A stretch of 64,000 nucleotides of DNA, from the NCBI GenBank assembly GCA_025350695.1, contig JANXXI010000188.1:1-64000 (forward strand), read 5' to 3'. The stretch's first letter is position 1; each line of letters opens with the position of its first letter. A program made the translations under genes and the position numbers. Below, one piece after another: positions 17,444-24,901 of the stretch. This DNA comes from Acidobacteriota bacterium. Its GTDB lineage: Bacteria; Acidobacteriota; Terriglobia; Bryobacterales; Bryobacteraceae. The notes beneath the pieces are model-generated. The model ran no database searches. It saw nothing but the letters and a program-made list of their open reading frames with translations, and was not told where the DNA came from.

Positions 17444-17771
17444 TAGATTTTTCAACTCCCGCTCCAACTCTGATTCCGCCAACCCGCCTTTTCAATCTCC
17501 GCCTGTTCTTCTTCCTCGGTCGTGTCGGAACCACTACCTCCGAGCTTCGGTCCGTGGTATTGGCCGCAATCCGGCTCATGGAAGACGGTTCCAAAGACAG
17601 AGCAGCGCCACCTGCCTTTCAGCTTCCCCAAAATACCCTCCACATCCGGTGCGGGCCTGTTTGAGTTGCGTAGTGCAGCGCCGTCTCCGGCCGTTAGTTT
17701 CCTCCGACGTCCTGCAGGGCCGGGGCCGCGGCAAGTGACAGCCAAAGAAACGCAGAAAAGAGTTTTCTCAC
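17429..17771 (-). pseudogene. Degenerate small secreted protein downstream of hisA
   Basis: The 324 bases between the HAD gene and hisA hold no intact gene. On the minus strand a GTG overlapping the hisA stop opens a signal-peptide-like start ([19 protein letters not shown]), then stops. A second frame continues with RPAPDVEGILGKLKGRWRCS and an acidic EEEEQAEIEK stretch, and a third finishes with [15 protein letters not shown]. The three pieces read as one secreted or periplasmic protein with a C-terminal coiled coil, broken by two indels. The reconstruction is by eye and function is unknown. It would have been the last gene of the his operon. Confidence 0.35.
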
Positions 17772-18466
17772 CTGACCATGGTAGCGAGTTCAGAGAGCGA
17801 TAGCCGCCCTGTATAAATTGCCATCCCCAACGCCGCGTGAATGTCCATCGCAAGCAGCGCCTTCACATCGTCCATCGTGGTAACTCCACCGGCTGCGGTA
17901 ATCTCGTGCTTCGTAGCGGCACGCAGGCGCGCGAACCATTCAAGATCTGTACCTTGCATCATGCCTTCCTTGTCCACGTAAGTGCACAGAAAGCCGCCGC
18001 AGTATGGCTCCAGCTCGCCAATGACATCTTCGGCCGCGAGCGAGGTGGCTTCTTGCCAGCCCTTCACAACGATGCGCCCGCCTTTTGAATCGAGCGCAAG
18101 AAGGATGCGTTCCGGTCCCACTTCCGCCGCGATACATTTCAGCAACTCATGATTCACTCCGGTCTTGGTGAAGGCGCTTGTACCGACAATGACGCGGCTC
18201 GCCCCTTGCTCCACCAATCTTCGGGCGCGTTCCGGAGTCCGCACGCCGCCACCCACACGAGTCGTCGCACGAGACGCCAGCAGTTCCACGATCTCGTCAT
18301 TCGTCCCGCGGCCCAGCGCCGCATCGAGGTCGATCACTTGAATCACGGGAAATGCCGAGAACTTTTCCAACATCACGAGGGGCGCTTCACCCTCCAGCGC
18401 TTTCTCTTTGCCTTGGACCAACTGCACCACTTTTCCGTCCATCAAATCAATACAGGGAATGATCAC
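17768..18466 (-). CDS. hisA: ProFAR isomerase
   Basis: 232-residue (beta/alpha)8 barrel. Begins [19 protein letters not shown] with the N-terminal catalytic Asp, and has [35 protein letters not shown] with the second catalytic Asp region, and [16 protein letters not shown]. It converts ProFAR to PRFAR. Final intact gene of the leftward his operon; its ATG overlaps the hisF stop by four bases. Confidence 0.95.
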
Positions 18467-19227
18467 GCCGTCTTCCTCACCACAATGCCGTATTTGTACA
18501 AAAATTCTTTCAAGTCGTTCACCGTGTAAGTTCCATAGTGGAAGATGCTTGCCGCCAGCGCCGCATCGGCTCGACCTTCGGTGAGCACTTCAAGGAAATG
18601 CTCTGGCGTGCCGCCGCCGCCTGAGGCGATCACTGGAATCAGGGTTGCTCGCGAGACCGCCGCCGTAAGGTGGCAATCAAAGCCCTGCTTGACACCGTCG
18701 GAATCCATCGACGTCAGCAGGATCTCGCCCGCCCCCAACTGTTGCCCGTGCGCCGCCCACTCCACTGCGTCAATCCCTTCGTCCACGCGCCCGCCTTTTG
18801 TGAAAACATTCCAGCGGCCATCGGGCCTCCGTCTCGCATCAATAGCGAGCACAACCGCTTGTGCGCCAAACTCACGGCTCAGTTCGCTGATCAGTTCCGG
18901 CCTTCGCACAGCCGATGTATTCACGCTCACTTTATCGGCGCCGGCCATCAGGATCTTCCGTGCATCGACGATGCTACGAATCCCACCTCCCACCGTAAGG
19001 GGAATGAAAACCTTGCGGGCTGTGCGGGCCACCACATCCACCATTGTGTTGCGATCGTCGCTCGAAGCGGTGATATCCAGGAACACCAGTTCATCCGCCG
19101 ATTGGTCGTTGTAGCGCGTTGCCAATTCCACCGGGTCGCCGGCATCGCGTAGATTGACAAAGTTGATGCCCTTCACCACGCGTCCGCCGGTGACGTCAAG
19201 GCACGGAATAATTCGTTTCGCTAGCAT
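18463..19227 (-). CDS. hisF: Imidazole glycerol phosphate synthase, cyclase subunit
   Basis: 254 residues starting at [20 protein letters not shown], 22 bases after hisH; a 16-residue upstream extension would overlap hisH and is not preferred. Contains catalytic Asp-11 (CLDV) and the second Asp in [10 protein letters not shown], plus [10 protein letters not shown] and [17 protein letters not shown] phosphate-binding loops. With HisH it converts PRFAR and ammonia to IGP and AICAR. Confidence 0.97.
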
Positions 19228-19249
19228 GCTGTCATAGGTCCAGGAGGTA

Positions 19250-19843
19250 TCAGAGTTCAATGAAGTTTTTGACAATTTTCAATCCTAGAGGGCCGGATTT
19301 TTCGGGATGAAATTGCACGCCAAAAACATTGGTTGCTTCAAGGGCCGCGGTGAACGGCTCGGCATACTGGCACGTGGCCGCTGCCTGCGGAATCACTGGT
19401 GCATAATAGCTATGGGCAAAGTATAGATAAGGCCGCTCGCCCATGTTGGCGAACAAGCGCGAACCTTTCTTCGCGTCCACTTCGTTCCACCCCATGTGGG
19501 GCACGCGCGCATCTTCCGGGAACCGCTTCACCATGCCGGGGAACAGGCCGAGACCGGCAACGCCAGGGGCTTCTTCGCTTCCTTCAAACATCGCCTGCAG
19601 CCCGATGCAAATTCCAAGGAACGGTATGCCGCCCTTGGCGCGATTGATCAACGTTTCCCGCACGCGCATCGCATCGAGCGACCGCAACATCTGCCCAAAA
19701 TGCCCCACCCCCGGAAGGATAATTTTGGTGGCTTTCTCCAACCCTTCCGCATCGTCGACGAGGGTATAGGTTGCGCCGATTTCAGCCAGCGTATTCAGTA
19801 CGCTCCGCAGATTGCCGGCGCCGTAATCGAATACGGCAATCAT
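19250..19843 (-). CDS. hisH: Imidazole glycerol phosphate synthase, glutaminase subunit
   Basis: 197 residues from [15 protein letters not shown], whose ATG overlaps the hisB stop (ATGA). The class I glutamine amidotransferase triad is visible: Cys in [12 protein letters not shown] near residue 80, and His/Glu in [11 protein letters not shown] near 178-180. Supplies ammonia to HisF. Confidence 0.96.
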
Positions 19844-20433
19844 AAAAGACCCTTGGTGGAAGGTAGTTGGTCTTTCAGCCTGGCATCTTTCGAGCAGGCG
19901 AACTTCATGGCTCGGGCAAAGCATTTGAAGATGCCTTCAATCTTGTGATGGTTAGAGCGGCCATAAAGAATCTTAGCGTGCAGGTTGCCGCCAACGTGCA
20001 CGGTAAAGCCATCGAAGAAGTCATGCAGCAGTTCCGTTTGCAAGTCGCCCACCAACACTACCTTCACTTTGTCTTCGTACACCAGCGCGGGCCGGCCGCC
20101 GAGATCCACAGCGACCACGGCAAGTGTCTCATCCATCGGCAGCACAAAATAGCCAGCGCGATTAATGCCCTTACGGTCGCCTAACGCCTTCGCGAAAAGC
20201 TGCCCTAGAACGATTCCCACGTCTTCGACGGTATGGTGCTGATCCACGTCCAGGTCGCCCTTTGCGTCCAGCGTCAAATCGAAACCGCCATGTTTGGTGA
20301 ACAGCTCCAGCATATGATCCAGAAAGCGAATGCCGGTTTGGACGTTGTATTTACCCTTACCTTCAATCTTCAGCGAACCGGTGATTTGGGTTTCTTTGGT
20401 GATCCGTTTCACTGCGGCAGTTCTTACTGGCAT
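19840..20433 (-). CDS. hisB: Imidazoleglycerol-phosphate dehydratase
   Basis: 197-residue monofunctional IGPD. The two manganese-binding repeats are present: [17 protein letters not shown] with [11 protein letters not shown] near 65-75, and [19 protein letters not shown] near 148-166. There is no N-terminal phosphatase domain, so the following pathway step (histidinol-phosphate phosphatase) must come from elsewhere; the preceding HAD gene is the candidate. Ten-base overlap with that gene. Confidence 0.97.
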
Positions 20434-21116
20434 AGAAAATTCTCCAGTTGGTTGATGTCGTCAAGTACGGCAATCGCGCCTTCGTCCCACAACAGTTTTG
20501 TAGTCGTTTCCGATTGCAGTCCACCGGGATGACTGATCCCGATGAAGGGCACTCCCGCCACCGACGCAGAGCGCGCATCATCTATCGTGTCGCCAATGTA
20601 GAAATATTCCACGTCAGGGATTTGCCTTTGTATCAGTTCCAGGCCATCTGGTGCGGGCTTGCCGTTTTTGACTTCGTCCGCTCCAATCAATGGCAGAAAG
20701 TTCATATTGGGGACGAAACGATCAAGCGTAATTCGCGCTTCTTCTTTTGTACGTCCTGTAAAGATTGAAAAACGGAATCTGCGGTTCAGCTTTTCCAGCA
20801 CGCCTTCGTTGGCAATCCATCGTTCGCGCCACATCAAGCCTTCTTCCGGTGTGGGCCCGAAGAAAACCTTCTGAAAGTAATCGACAACAACATCGTATTC
20901 AAGTTGAGTTCCGAGGTCCGCGGCAATCTTCCGCGAAAGCATCCAATCGTTATTCCAGCCTCCTTGATTCTTGTAATCCTGTACTAAATCTTTAGTGATC
21001 TGCTTGCCGGTGAAGTGCTCTACCGTAACTAGAATCGCGGAACGATAGGATTCGCGCACATCCACTAGCACGCCGTCCATATCGAAAATGATCAGGTCGC
21101 TCGCAGACTTTACCAT
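20424..21116 (-). CDS. HAD-IA hydrolase in the his operon, candidate histidinol-phosphate phosphatase
   Basis: 230 residues from the ATG that overlaps the hisC stop by seven bases. Motif [18 protein letters not shown] near residues 8-24, motif [13 protein letters not shown], motif [15 protein letters not shown] and motif [14 protein letters not shown] are complete, so the catalytic machinery is intact. The sequence resembles the small HAD-IA group whose members are associated or fused with HisB in some lineages. Translational overlaps on both sides (hisC before, hisB after) put it exactly where the histidinol-phosphate phosphatase step is needed, since HisB here lacks that domain. Activity is inferred from context. 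An alternative is a general sugar-phosphate phosphatase. Confidence 0.8.
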
Positions 21117-22168
21117 ATGGCTGCTAACTCCTCCAAAAAGAGCCGGATCTGATCGCGCGTCCCTACCGTTACGCGGACACAACCAGGCAGTTCATAGCTA
21201 CGATCCCGAATCAAAATACTTTTCGCCCGCAACGCATCGCGAACTGGAATGGCGCGATCCCCAGCATGGATCAGCACGAAATTGGCTTGGCTTTGGAAGT
21301 ATGGGATCTTCAAGTTTTCAAGGCCAACATACAGCAACTCGCGGGCCGCCAGCACCTCCGTGACGTATTTTCGAATGTACCCCTGATCCCGAACCGCGGC
21401 GCGTGCGGCCAGCGCCGCCAACGAATTCACACTGTAAGGCGACTGTGCTTTATGCATCCATTTGATGTTCGACGCGCGCGAAAATAGACATCCGAAGCGC
21501 ATACCCGCCATGCCATACACTTTGGAAAACGTCCGGCTGACAAACAGATTCGGATACTCTTCAATCAGCGGCAGGGCGGTGATGCCGCAAAATTCGTAGT
21601 AGGCTTCGTCGATTAAAACGGCTGCATTCGGAGCCTTTTTTAGGATGCGTTCAATCCCTTCAAGATTCGTTCCCGTGCCTGTTGGATTATTGGGATTGGC
21701 GATCAAAATAGCGCGCGTCGATGGGGTGATGGCTCCCAGTAGTTCCTGTAAGGGGAACTCCAGCTTCGCAACGCGATAGTCAATTTCGCGCACAACGGCC
21801 CCGGCCACTTCCGAATAAAATTTGTACATCGCATAACTGGGGCGCAGCAGCAGCACCTCGTCTTCGTCGTCCACGTATGTATTCACCAGCACCTGAATTG
21901 CTTCGTCGGTACCGTTGGTGAACAACATTTCGTCTTCGGGGACTTGAAAGAACTCGGACAGTTCCCGGCGCGCGTCCGTATATTCCGGATAGACAGCCAG
22001 ATCATTCTCTGTTAAATTTTCCGCGATGAACTGCGTCACCCGAGGCGAGCAGCCAATCGTATTCTCGTTGAAATCAAGGCGAAGCATATCGGCGCGACCG
22101 CCTGTGGGAGGCGAATATGGAGCCATCCGTTCGACCGCTGGTCGCGGCCGCAGTTCTTCTTTCGGCAC
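21110..22168 (-). CDS. hisC: Histidinol-phosphate aminotransferase
   Basis: 352 residues from GTG 22168, four bases after the hisD stop; the frame extends further upstream into hisD but without need. Class I/II PLP fold: LDFNENTIGCSP near residue 29, NPNNPTGTG, VLIDEAYYEF with the PLP Asp and Tyr, and SRTFSKVYGMAGMRFG with the PLP-binding Lys. C-terminal RVTVGTRDQIRLFL carries the carboxylate-binding Arg. Converts imidazole-acetol phosphate to histidinol phosphate. Confidence 0.95.
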   Translation of the reverse strand: MPKEELRPRPAVERMAPYSPPTGGRADMLRLDFNENTIGCSPRVTQFIAENLTENDLAVYPEYTDARRELSEFFQVPEDEMLFTNGTDEAIQVLVNTYVDDEDEVLLLRPSYAMYKFYSEVAGAVVREIDYRVAKLEFPLQELLGAITPSTRAILIANPNNPTGTGTNLEGIERILKKAPNAAVLIDEAYYEFCGITALPLIEEYPNLFVSRTFSKVYGMAGMRFGCLFSRASNIKWMHKAQSPYSVNSLAALAARAAVRDQGYIRKYVTEVLAARELLYVGLENLKIPYFQSQANFVLIHAGDRAIPVRDALRAKSILIRDRSYELPGCVRVTVGTRDQIRLFLEELAAIW

Positions 22169-22172
22169 TGGC

Positions 22173-23429
22173 CTATTTCTCCCTCTTTGACAGCAATCGA
22201 ACTTCCACGCTACGCGCATGCGCCTCAAGCCCTTCAGCGCGCGCCAGAGTCGTTATGGCCGGCGCCAACGTCCGCAGTGCAGCGGTGGAAAGCTGCTGGG
22301 TCGAAATGATCTTTACGTAATCCGCTGACGATAACCCTCCGCGCAGCCGCGCCGCACCGGAGGTGGGCAGTACATGGTTCGGCCCGGAGGAATAGTCGCC
22401 GGCAGCTTCCGGGCTCGACGCGCCAATGAAAATGCTGCCCGCATGGCGGATCGTTGGAACAAGGCTTGCATCTGGAATGCTCAGGTGTTCAGGCGCAAAT
22501 TGGTTTGAGATATCCACCGCTTGTGCAAGGGACTTCACTAGAATGATCGCGCTGTTGTTGTCGATCGCCACGCGCGCCGTTTCCGCCGTGGATAAAGTGG
22601 CAAGCTGCTTTTCGATCTCGTTCGAGACGGCCGCAGCTAGTGATTTCGATGTGGTCAGCAGCACCGCGGACGCGTCGGTGTCGTGTTCGGCCTGCGCCAA
22701 CATATCCGCGGCAATCCACGCAGGATTACCCTCGGCGGCAATGATCAAAATTTCCGTGGGGCCAGCGATGAAGTCGATGCCTACTTCGCCGGCAAGCAGC
22801 TTCTTGGCGGCCGCTACGTAAATATTGCCGGGTCCGACAATGCGGTCTGCACGGGGAACAATTTCCGTACCATAAGCAAATGCGGCAATCGCCTGCGCTC
22901 CACCCATTTGAAAAACATTCTTCACGCCTAACAAGGAAGCTGTGCCGAAGATCTCTGTCACAGGTCTCGGCGATGCCACGCAGACGTTGGGTACGCCAGC
23001 CACTTGCGCCGGAATCACCGTCATCAACAAAGTGGAGGGCAGGGGATAACGCCCGGACGGAATGTAGGCTGCCACGGTATCGAGCGGGCGAACGACCTGT
23101 CCGAGTTTCAATCCAGGTGCGACTGTTTTCTGCTTCGCCTCAGGCAACTGCAGTTCGGCAAAGGCGCGAATGTTCACCGACGAAACTTTCACCGCTTCGC
23201 GAAACGCCTTCGATAGCTTCTTTTCCGCCGCCTTCAACTCCGCGCGCGGGACGGCCACGCTGGGCCGGTCCAGCTTGTCAAACTTGCGAGCATACTCAAG
23301 CAACGCTTTGTCCCCGCGCGTTCGCACCGCGACAAGAATAGGCCGCACAATCGCTTCGGCCTCTTCAAACCGCGCGGCCTTGCGCGAGAGAATGGCGGCT
23401 ACTTGTTTGCTGTCTACAATTCGAATCAT
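22173..23429 (-). CDS. hisD: Histidinol dehydrogenase
   Basis: 418 residues, normal length. Conserved blocks: YIPSGRYPLPSTLLM, GPGNIYVAAAKKLLAGEVGID, AGPTEILI, AEHDTDASAVLLT (zinc and catalytic region) and FAPEHLSI, TGxx-like AAGDYSSGPNHVLPT. Performs the two final NAD-dependent oxidations to histidine. Starts four bases after hisG. Confidence 0.97.
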   Translation of the reverse strand: MIRIVDSKQVAAILSRKAARFEEAEAIVRPILVAVRTRGDKALLEYARKFDKLDRPSVAVPRAELKAAEKKLSKAFREAVKVSSVNIRAFAELQLPEAKQKTVAPGLKLGQVVRPLDTVAAYIPSGRYPLPSTLLMTVIPAQVAGVPNVCVASPRPVTEIFGTASLLGVKNVFQMGGAQAIAAFAYGTEIVPRADRIVGPGNIYVAAAKKLLAGEVGIDFIAGPTEILIIAAEGNPAWIAADMLAQAEHDTDASAVLLTTSKSLAAAVSNEIEKQLATLSTAETARVAIDNNSAIILVKSLAQAVDISNQFAPEHLSIPDASLVPTIRHAGSIFIGASSPEAAGDYSSGPNHVLPTSGAARLRGGLSSADYVKIISTQQLSTAALRTLAPAITTLARAEGLEAHARSVEVRLLSKREK

Positions 23430-23433
23430 AGGC

Positions 23434-24303
23434 TTACATCACAATCTTGTTCAACGGATATTCAACAATGCCTTGCGCCCCAGCTTCTTTTAAACGGGGA
23501 ATAATAACGCGCACAGTGGCTTCTTCAATAATGGTATTCAAGGCCAACCAGTTGTCATCGCTTAGGTGGGAAATGGTCGGCTTCTTCAGCGCCGGCAGAA
23601 CGCCTAACACACGATCCAGATTTTGCTTCTCCACATTGAGCATTAATCCAACCTTCCCTAGCGCGGCGATGGCCCCATCCAGCAGCATTTTCATATCACC
23701 CAGCTTGCGCCGCTTCCATTCGTCCGCCCAGGCGGTTTTATTGGCGATTAGCTGTGTATTTGACTCCATGATGGTCTCAACGATGCGCAATTTATTTGCC
23801 CGCAAGGATGAGCCGGTCTCCGTGACCTCGACGATAGCATCGGCCAGAACCGGCGGCTTCACTTCGGTTGCGCCCCAACTGAACTCCACTTTCGCCTTCA
23901 CGCCGTTGCGCTCCAGATAGCGCTTGGTGGCGTTCACCAATTCGGTGGCGATCACCTTGCCTTCCAGATCCTTCACTGTTTTCACCGGCGCGTCTTCGGG
24001 CACAGCCAGCACCCATCGGACCTTTCCAAAACTCTGTTTGGCATAGACCAGATCGGCCACCACTTCCACGTCGGCTTCGTTCTCCACCACCCAGTCGTAA
24101 CCCGTCAGCCCTGCGTCCAGCACGCCGTCTTGAACGTAGCGGGCCATCTCCTGCGCACGAATCAGCATGCATTCAATTTCCGGATCGTCGATCGCCGGAA
24201 AATAAGAACGGCTGGAAATATTGATGTTAAATCCAGCGCGGCGGAACAGATCCACGGTTGCGGTTTCAAGACTTCCCTTGGGTATGCCTAGTTTCAGTTT
24301 CAT
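23434..24303 (-). CDS. hisG: ATP phosphoribosyltransferase, long form
   Basis: 289 residues from [13 protein letters not shown]; upstream extension lacks family residues. Contains the periplasmic-binding-like catalytic lobes ([40 protein letters not shown], the PRPP loop) and a C-terminal ACT-like HisG_C domain (about 215-289: [20 protein letters not shown]) that binds histidine. The long form needs no HisZ and is feedback-inhibited directly. Commits ATP and PRPP to histidine synthesis. Confidence 0.96.
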
Positions 24304-24311
24304 GTTGTCCC

Positions 24312-24686
24312 TTACTTGTTGTAAACCGAATTCGGGTCGTAAGTGCGCTCTTCGGTGATCACCCATTGGCCATCGCGCAACGTGCGGTAGAAGCAGCTTT
24401 GGTAGCCATCGTGGCAAACGCCCGGGCCCAGTTCCTCACCTTGAATCAGCACCGCGTCTTTATCACAGTCGGTCTGAATTGACTTCACGGCGATCTTATG
24501 GCCGGAGGTTTCCCCTTTCAGCCAAAGCTTCTTCCGCGAGCGGCTGTAGAAGCACGCAAAGCCCGTGTCCATGGTGATTTTGAACGATTCCTCGTTCATG
24601 TAGCCGACCATGAGCACGCGTCCGGTTTTGTGATCCTGAATGACGGCAGTCACAAGGCCGTCGAGTTTTGAAAAGTCTAGGTCCAT
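24312..24686 (-). CDS. hisI: Phosphoribosyl-AMP cyclohydrolase
   Basis: 124 residues. Signature [37 protein letters not shown], the metal-binding DCDKDAVLI and the zinc cysteines in [12 protein letters not shown]. It lacks a fused HisE (phosphoribosyl-ATP pyrophosphatase) domain and no hisE gene was found in the window, so that step must be encoded elsewhere. First structural gene of the operon, 97 bases after the leader-peptide stop and immediately after the attenuator terminator. Confidence 0.96.
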
Positions 24687-24712: not shown

Positions 24713-24756
24713 AAAAATGAGAACGCCCGCCGATTGCTCTGCGGGCGCTTACTCTC
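24713..24756 (-). terminator. his attenuator terminator (segments 3:4)
   Basis: On the minus strand the arm at 24741-24756 (containing GCGCCCGC) pairs with 24719-24730 (GCGGGCGTTCTC): nine pairs including a G-U, a small internal bulge, then three more, followed by a run of five U. It lies between hisL and hisI. Segment 3 can also pair with segment 2 (24793-24799, GCGGGCC on the transcript), giving the antiterminator. Confidence 0.85.
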
Positions 24757-24783
24757 GAAAAATTTCATGGGTATGAAACAGGT

Positions 24784-24864
24784 TCAAGAACAGGCCCGCG
24801 CGCACGTATGGCTTGCATGGTGATGCGGGCCGTGGTGGAGAGCGGGGATGGTGAACAGCTTCAT
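24784..24864 (-). CDS. hisL: his operon leader peptide
   Basis: 26-codon reading frame, ATG at 24864 and TGA at 24784-24786. The peptide has six histidines in residues 10-19 (HHGPHHHASH), as in classical his attenuator leaders. The codons GGC-CCG-C (24831-24825 on the transcript, segment 1) overlap the His codons and are perfectly complementary to GCGGGCC in the last codons (24799-24793, segment 2). A ribosome stalled for want of His-tRNA would free segment 2 to pair with segment 3 and prevent termination. The start codon lies only nine bases after a -10 hexamer, so the message is probably leaderless. Confidence 0.88.
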   Translation of the reverse strand: MKLFTIPALHHGPHHHASHTCARACS

Positions 24865-24873
24865 GAAAAGATC

Positions 24874-24901
24874 AGTATAGCATGGGTGGGCGGAGTTACA
24901 A
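24874..24901 (-). promoter_or_regulatory. Predicted his operon promoter
   Basis: On the minus strand: -35 TTGTAA (24901-24896), 16-base spacer, -10 TATACT (24879-24874). A start point 6-8 bases downstream falls zero to three bases before the hisL ATG. It overlaps the start of the divergent Uma2 gene, so that gene's own promoter must lie further inside the his leader. Confidence 0.6.

Follow-up and report, generated by a model that had tools for sequence, protein, structure and literature searches.

A predicted histidine attenuator with a probably leaderless leader peptide before the his operon of Acidobacteriota

The DNA before hisI in an Acidobacteriota bacterium raises the question of whether a short, histidine-rich open reading frame (ORF), hisL, and the hairpin that follows it act together as a switch for the histidine operon, and where the message of such a switch would begin. 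The window, which is the whole stretch of 64,000 nucleotides (64 kb) analysed here, carries the following features at this locus.

24896 to 24901, minus strand: -35 hexamer TTGTAA, a consensus match only
24874 to 24879, minus strand: -10 hexamer TATACT with TG upstream, a consensus match whose spacing is kept in relatives
24784 to 24864, minus strand: leader ORF hisL, MKLFTIPALHHGPHHHASHTCARACS, 26 codons plus TGA, by direct reading, with His-rich leaders in relatives
24825 to 24831, minus strand: strand 1, GGCCCGC, within the His-codon stretch, partner of strand 2
24793 to 24799, minus strand: strand 2, GCGGGCC, close to the end of hisL, partner of strand 1 or 3
24741 to 24748, minus strand: strand 3, GCGCCCGC, antiterminator with strand 2, terminator with strand 4
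24724 to 24730, minus strand: strand 4, GCGGGCG, the 3′ arm of the terminator
24713 to 24718, minus strand: terminator U-run, ATTTTT
24312 to 24686, minus strand: hisI, phosphoribosyl-AMP cyclohydrolase, the first structural gene, with its ATG at 24686 (NCBIfam NF000768 above cut-off)
17768 to 24417, minus strand: rest of the his operon, namely hisG, hisD, hisC, a HAD hydrolase gene, hisB, hisH, hisF, and hisA

A first-pass annotation, made from the letters of the DNA, had described a 26-codon His-rich peptide on the minus strand between promoter and hisI, three mutually exclusive pairings, and a terminator with a U-run. All of these are present: the peptide by direct reading, the pairings as cores of 7, 6, and 7 bp, and the terminator as a folded hairpin of -20.5 kcal/mol plus ATTTTT. 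The hisL segment HHGPHHHASH contains six His in ten residues, encoded in order by CAC CAC CAT CAC CAT CAT, and hisL is the sole ORF of 9-60 aa in the 64 kb with at least five His in ten residues. In ten 64-kb sequences simulated with a Markov-1 model, such ORFs numbered 0.1 on average, and none had at least six His. The folding of the window leader also surpasses that of 200 out of 200 dinucleotide shuffles (z -3.62). The promoter is sigma70-like in matching 9 of 12 consensus positions, no more; by direct reading, a 16-nt spacer separates TTGTAA from TATACT, a TG precedes the -10, and nine nt lie between TATACT and the hisL ATG (24864). A generic terminator scan reported no terminator at the window leader, probably because that scan allows loops of up to 8 nt and the loop here has 10. 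A hairpin-plus-U-run search with folding was used in its place, and it finds a terminator with a U-run in 76 of the 82 leaders compared below, three of the 76 being doubtful.

As hisI is the first of nine co-directional genes, the leader precedes a nearly complete his operon. Six of the genes (hisG, hisD, hisC, hisB, hisH, and hisF) score above curated cut-offs, while hisA matches TIGR00007 below cut-off and the HAD gene has its best match in TIGR01548, also below cut-off. This HAD-family hydrolase gene (20424-21182, minus strand) lies between hisC and hisB, has a related gene in 11 of the 20 class loci examined, and is a candidate histidinol-phosphatase. Alone of the his set, hisE was not found in searches of the operon and its own genome. 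The only PRA-PH matches in that genome are two modest ones in one 297-aa frame (G000:C77:34023-34586), and their tandem layout suggests a MazG-like protein. A divergent gene of the Uma2 family (PF05685; 24882-25514, plus strand) lies on the other side of the leader, and its longest ORF begins inside the hisL promoter.

Of 415 hisI matches in named genomes, the best 80 were kept; the best relatives among them are labelled Acidobacteria, Bryobacterales, Terriglobia, or Solibacter, and the assignment of the DNA to Acidobacteriota fits these labels. Together with 55 loci from L004-L059, from which L059 was left out for want of upstream DNA, the window makes up a closest set of 56 Acidobacteriota loci among these best 80 of 415 matches. 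A leader before hisI is found in 53 of the 56, window included, and is absent in L022, L042, and L055. In L022, a deletion has fused the leader ATG in frame to hisI (MRLQAKPAVFPAGFAIPTFENTK-MDL...), and in L042 the leader ORF is gone while promoter and terminator remain. From their sequences, both read as natural losses of the leader, with an assembly error possible in either. Two further sets were hand-picked for spread over families, so that their fractions are not unbiased frequencies: set B, with 20 loci from elsewhere in the class, the sister family included, and set C, with 38 loci from other families of the phylum. Set B has a clear leader in 13 of 20 loci, a doubtful one in L093, and none in six; L091 and L055 are apparently one contig, and that negative is counted in both sets. 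Five of the six loci without a leader are L084-L088, which are all the genomes analysed from one sister genus and are also without hisG beside hisI in the fetched stretch; L089 has no such hisG and keeps the leader. Set C has a leader with a terminator in 9 of 38 loci, a leader in L133 whose terminator lies as far as 158 nt downstream, and a His-rich leader for which the scan found no U-tailed terminator in five further loci; the remaining loci have no leader or a contig that ends short of the operon start. As several set C loci are short of the operon start, absence there is no evidence. Among 24 hisI loci labelled as other groups, in which hisI is perhaps not the first gene, no ORF with five His in ten was found. 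The element is thus carried by nearly all close relatives, common within the class, and patchy elsewhere in the phylum. Its occurrence in an Acidobacteriota-like genome, which the first-pass annotation had singled out as noteworthy, is real, but it is no isolated oddity.

Some set C loci show other layouts. The five loci without a detected U-tailed terminator (L117, L126, L129, L130, and L132) have His-rich ORFs before his genes, and some of them show a GC hairpin without a U-run and are possibly translational or Rho-dependent variants. L127 has two tandem His-rich ORFs (MVTATLSRLHHHHHPIIGPGTGAHAV and ...APFHAHHHHHFHLPSG), roughly 300 and 110-150 nt before hisG and each followed by a U-tailed hairpin, which may constitute a double his attenuator.

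Upstream regions were available from 115 loci, L112, L137, and L141 having yielded none. Of these regions, 27 held no ORF with three His in ten, and six candidates judged spurious or duplicate were removed by hand (L042, L109, L119, L127_hisC, L140, and L003, the last a duplicate of L049, whose leader was re-chosen by hand), which left 82 leaders. Their His codons are mixed, with 263 CAT and 189 CAC. Leaving out six leaders without a terminator (L053, L117, L126, L129, L130, and L132) and three doubtful ones (L093, L127, and L133) gave 73; L019, with a mis-assigned terminator, and then L052, whose leader repeats that of L033, were removed to give 72 and 71.

Very probably, the element is a transcription attenuator in which the ribosome on a leaderless hisL acts as the sensor of charged His-tRNA. 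We infer where transcription begins, that hisL is translated, that a ribosome stalls on it, and that the operon responds to histidine, as follows. RNA polymerase would start at most about 3 nt from the hisL AUG, so that a ribosome would load at the 5′ end with no need of a Shine-Dalgarno sequence. With His-tRNA charged, this ribosome would reach the UGA and cover strand 2, so that the 3:4 terminator forms and transcription stops before hisI. When His-tRNA is scarce, the ribosome would stall on the His codons and cover strand 1, and strand 2, being left free, would capture the emerging strand 3, so that no terminator forms and the operon is transcribed. As far as the sequence can tell, this is ordinary his attenuation that would work like the enteric his attenuator. 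The translation coupling that had been proposed for the locus finds support in the anatomy, ribosome-position folding, shuffle controls, and covariation.

The place at which the message begins could be addressed by the spacing of the promoter. The -10 ends 5-11 nt upstream of the leader start in 71 of the 82 leaders (50/53 in the closest set and 21/29 from other families), a spacing that occurs in 7.6% of mononucleotide-shuffled upstream sequences, and it ends at 8 or 9 nt in 61 of the 82, including 16 of the 29 from other families. Among the eleven leaders outside the 5-11 nt range, several appear by eye to have a mis-called -10 or a second start codon, and L135, L097, and L133 may have a short UTR; in L135, the best -10 sits 35 nt before the chosen start. 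In the closest set, pyrimidines occupy positions -3, -2, and -1 of the ATG in 98, 98, and 89% of leaders (n=53), which makes the A of the ATG the first purine near the expected start, whereas the tract is weak outside this set (59, 79, and 76%; n=29). At the internal his promoters described for C. glutamicum, the -10 sits 7 +/- 1 nt before the transcription start (PMC3896937), and this distance applied to hisL predicts a start 0-3 nt before the AUG. In the three Acidobacteria genomes of one survey, leaderless genes have a predicted share of 13.3% on average (PMC3160421). Since 61 of the 82 leaders share the 8- or 9-nt spacing, the hisL message is probably leaderless, with about 0-3 nt before the AUG. 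The first-pass annotation had guessed as much from one sequence, and the 5-11 nt spacing in 71 leaders lends it comparative backing. A Shine-Dalgarno-like word precedes hisL in 1/53 leaders of the closest set and 3/29 of the others. By the same crude test, 8/53 hisI genes of the closest set have such a word and 45/53 are without it; since hisI starts mostly lack the word too, its absence before hisL says little about the start. Shine-Dalgarno-independent starts may be common in this lineage.

A wider reading, possible but tentative, is that leaderless initiation is part of the switch and that attenuation is old and general in the amino acid operons of the phylum. The promoter would be locked 8-9 nt before the hisL AUG, the ribosome would engage the 5′ end as it leaves the polymerase, and the fixed layout would set the timing between transcription and translation. 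In enteric his leaders, this timing is set by a pause site. If the wider reading holds, attenuation would cover his and, in the window's family, ilvB/leuA, and it would have been missed since no RNA model covers it.

It is unlikely that the attenuator is real and its message not leaderless, transcription coming from another upstream promoter and the ribosome initiating at an internal AUG without a Shine-Dalgarno sequence. Such an arrangement would suit the poor -35 of the window (TTGTAA), the distant -10 of L135, and the apparent want of a Shine-Dalgarno sequence before hisI in most relatives, which makes internal initiation of this kind plausible in the lineage. It would leave unexplained the spacing of 8 or 9 nt that extends to more than half of the leaders from other families, the pyrimidine tract of the closest set that reaches the A of the ATG, and the L022 deletion, in which hisI has become joined in frame to this very ATG, as a translation start at that codon would predict.

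For the leaderless attenuator, the predicted response to ribosome position was modelled by folding the RNA left free downstream of the ribosome, codon by codon, with a footprint offset of 12 nt. In the window, the terminator probability is 0.01-0.12 with the A-site at His10, 11, 14, 15, and 16, whereas it is 0.69 on the sixth His (His19; 0.39 at an offset of 10 nt) and 0.76-0.87 from codon 23 through the stop, with 0.76 at the stop itself. At offsets of 10 and 14 nt, the first five His give 0.01-0.12 and 0.00-0.31, respectively, and the stop gives 0.80 and 0.82. With the ribosome near the start and the leader almost wholly free, the value is 0.69. The modelled pattern is that of a classical attenuator with default termination, which would sense mainly the first five His codons. 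In the simulation, the passage from antiterminator at a His stall to terminator at the stop is clear in the window for five of the six His codons; in the relatives, it is clear for strand 3 capture and ambiguous at full equilibrium. In 70 of the 72 leaders, upstream RNA captures strand 3 more strongly when the ribosome sits on His than when it has reached the stop, which is partly an effect of more RNA being free. This capture also lies above the average for dinucleotide shuffles of that stretch in 69/72 (p<=0.05 in 29/72). At full equilibrium with the ribosome on His, the mean terminator probability over the 72 is 0.70, and the terminator still wins in many relatives; the value falls below the shuffle mean in only 40/72, with averages of 0.71 against 0.91 for the shuffles. 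It could be deduced that the switch of these relatives needs the 2:3 pairing to form ahead of strand 4 synthesis. Because the equilibrium terminator probability fails to discriminate in many relatives, it was not relied on alone.

These folding results bear on the idea of a hairpin that merely terminates transcription intrinsically or marks a processing site, with an incidental His-rich ORF and termination uncoupled from leader translation. The hairpin is indeed strong and forms while the His codons are free of a ribosome (0.69 with the ribosome near the start), and in many relatives it wins at equilibrium at any ribosome position. Uncoupled termination is nevertheless very improbable, because the His-rich ORF is kept in 53 of the 56 closest loci in mixed CAT and CAC codons, has no counterpart with five His in ten at the 24 hisI loci labelled as other groups, and contains strands 1 and 2, which co-vary with their partners.

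The pairings of the attenuator were further examined with shuffle controls and with comparison between families. With strand 2 dinucleotide-shuffled as control, the 2:3 duplex reaches p<0.05 in 34 of the 73 leaders (19/52 close and 15/21 others), and with strand 1 shuffled instead, the 1:2 duplex does so in 27/73, where about 4/73 are expected by chance in each test. In the window, the corresponding values are about 0.05 for 2:3, whose core is short at 6 GC pairs, and about 0.04 for 1:2. A MAFFT alignment of 50 leaders showed strands 3 and 4 to be almost invariant within the closest set, so that column covariation says little there, and a partner-swap test was used instead. Strand 3 differs between families (CCCGCCGG, CCCGCTGAC, CCCTCCGG, CCCGGC, CCCCGCC, and others), and strands 2 and 4 follow it. 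Swapping partners between relatives weakens the 1:2, 2:3, and 3:4 pairings, with p = 0.0002 for each, which is the floor of 5000 permutations. This holds in all three sets, comprising 22 sequences from 16 families, the 50 of the closest set, and all 71; the statistic ignores kinship, against which the 22 sequences, drawn from 16 families, offer the better protection. A lack of covariation had been named beforehand as an outcome that would tell against the attenuator, and all three pairings co-vary between families. The leader ORF, the pairings, their covariation, and the promoter spacing can be read from the sequences and their comparison.

The same comparison makes it scarcely probable, slightly less so even than uncoupled termination, that the peptide has a function of its own, by binding metal through its many His residues or by acting in trans, with or without attenuation. 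A trans role is on record for one leader peptide, peTrpL of Sinorhizobium, in the report on that system (PMC7298713). For hisL, however, the peptide sequence and length outside the His stretch differ between families while the pairings are kept; the search for His-rich leaders covered regions upstream of his genes only.

An Rfam search of the window at gathering and permissive thresholds (E up to 10) matched no family. The His_leader family RF00514 (gathering score 49 bits) was above cut-off in 0 of the 151 class genomes, under filters stricter than would keep weak matches. One sub-threshold RF00514 match in L215 was rejected, being on another contig than hisI and having no ORF with four His in ten. 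Control of hisI by a T-box or metabolite riboswitch is hardly credible: alternative structures before an amino-acid operon would fit it in general, but no Rfam family lies in the region even at E up to 10 and the alternative pairings run through the ORF. The functional marks of a his attenuator could be recognised in the sequence: a short, His-codon-rich ORF lying downstream of the promoter and upstream of the his operon, exclusive 1:2, 2:3, and 3:4 pairings, and a U-run terminator before the first structural gene. The leader has these sequence-testable features, yet it lies outside the Rfam His_leader sequence family.

Other amino acid operons were scanned as well. A first scan for a leader with a -10 before leuA and trpE genes gave no candidates, and the leaders before ilvB and one leuA surfaced once the -10 requirement was dropped. 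ORF ends rich in Ile, Val, and Leu occur before ilvB (L172-L176, L177 from the own genome, L178, L179, and L185) and leuA (L163), and are followed by GC-rich hairpins with T-rich tails; that of L177 ends in IIPVIIPIVGVTVVGYPA, with its upstream part cut by the contig end. These ilvB leaders and the leuA leader of L163 are probable branched-chain attenuators with putative start codons. Before trpEG, no leader was judged convincing in the scan without the -10 requirement. In L200-L204 and L206-L209, the chorismate-binding (anthranilate synthase-like) gene of the window's family is one frame of 716-828 aa, probably a TrpE-TrpG fusion, and no convincing Trp leader was found upstream of it; in the own genome, no match to the TrpE N-terminal model PF04715 was found.

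No description of an Acidobacteria his attenuator was recognised in the literature searched, an earlier mention being possible. In a 2010 account, almost none of the attenuators predicted in the Acidobacteria phylum had an associated function (PMC2965389), and the present leader suggests one. It would also extend his attenuation beyond the groups of its usual description, and the diverse, co-varying set of leaders could seed an RNA family model. In addition, the near-fixed distance between promoter and AUG provides a testable case for leaderless translation that synchronises ribosome and polymerase. Compared to the his attenuator of E. coli and Salmonella (RF00514), which belongs to another phylum and has seven His in a row, the leader described here has an interrupted His stretch, is followed by hisI as the first gene, and is probably leaderless. 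The bacilli hisS/hisZ leader peptides are likewise His-codon stretches outside Proteobacteria with predicted attenuation, but they are from Firmicutes and control genes of the tRNA-synthetase family, as that account describes them (PMC2965389). One statement of an Actinobacteria survey is that no conserved RNA structures occur upstream of histidine genes (PMC1262725). The leaders reported from Streptomyces lividans (LeuL, TrpL, IlvL, and others) are likewise attenuator ORFs without a 5′ UTR; they are actinobacterial, with no His leader among the eight listed, and several are without a clear terminator (PMC8079986). The Sinorhizobium meliloti rnTrpL likewise begins at the ATG of its leader ORF and arises by attenuation, but trpL/peTrpL concerns Trp rather than His, belongs to Alphaproteobacteria, and has known trans functions (PMC7298713). 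Leaderless leader peptides for other amino acids are already on record, in these reports, for Streptomyces and Sinorhizobium. What is new, as far as searched, is the lineage, the breadth of occurrence, and the conserved, near-fixed leaderless promoter layout, whereas the mechanism is classical.
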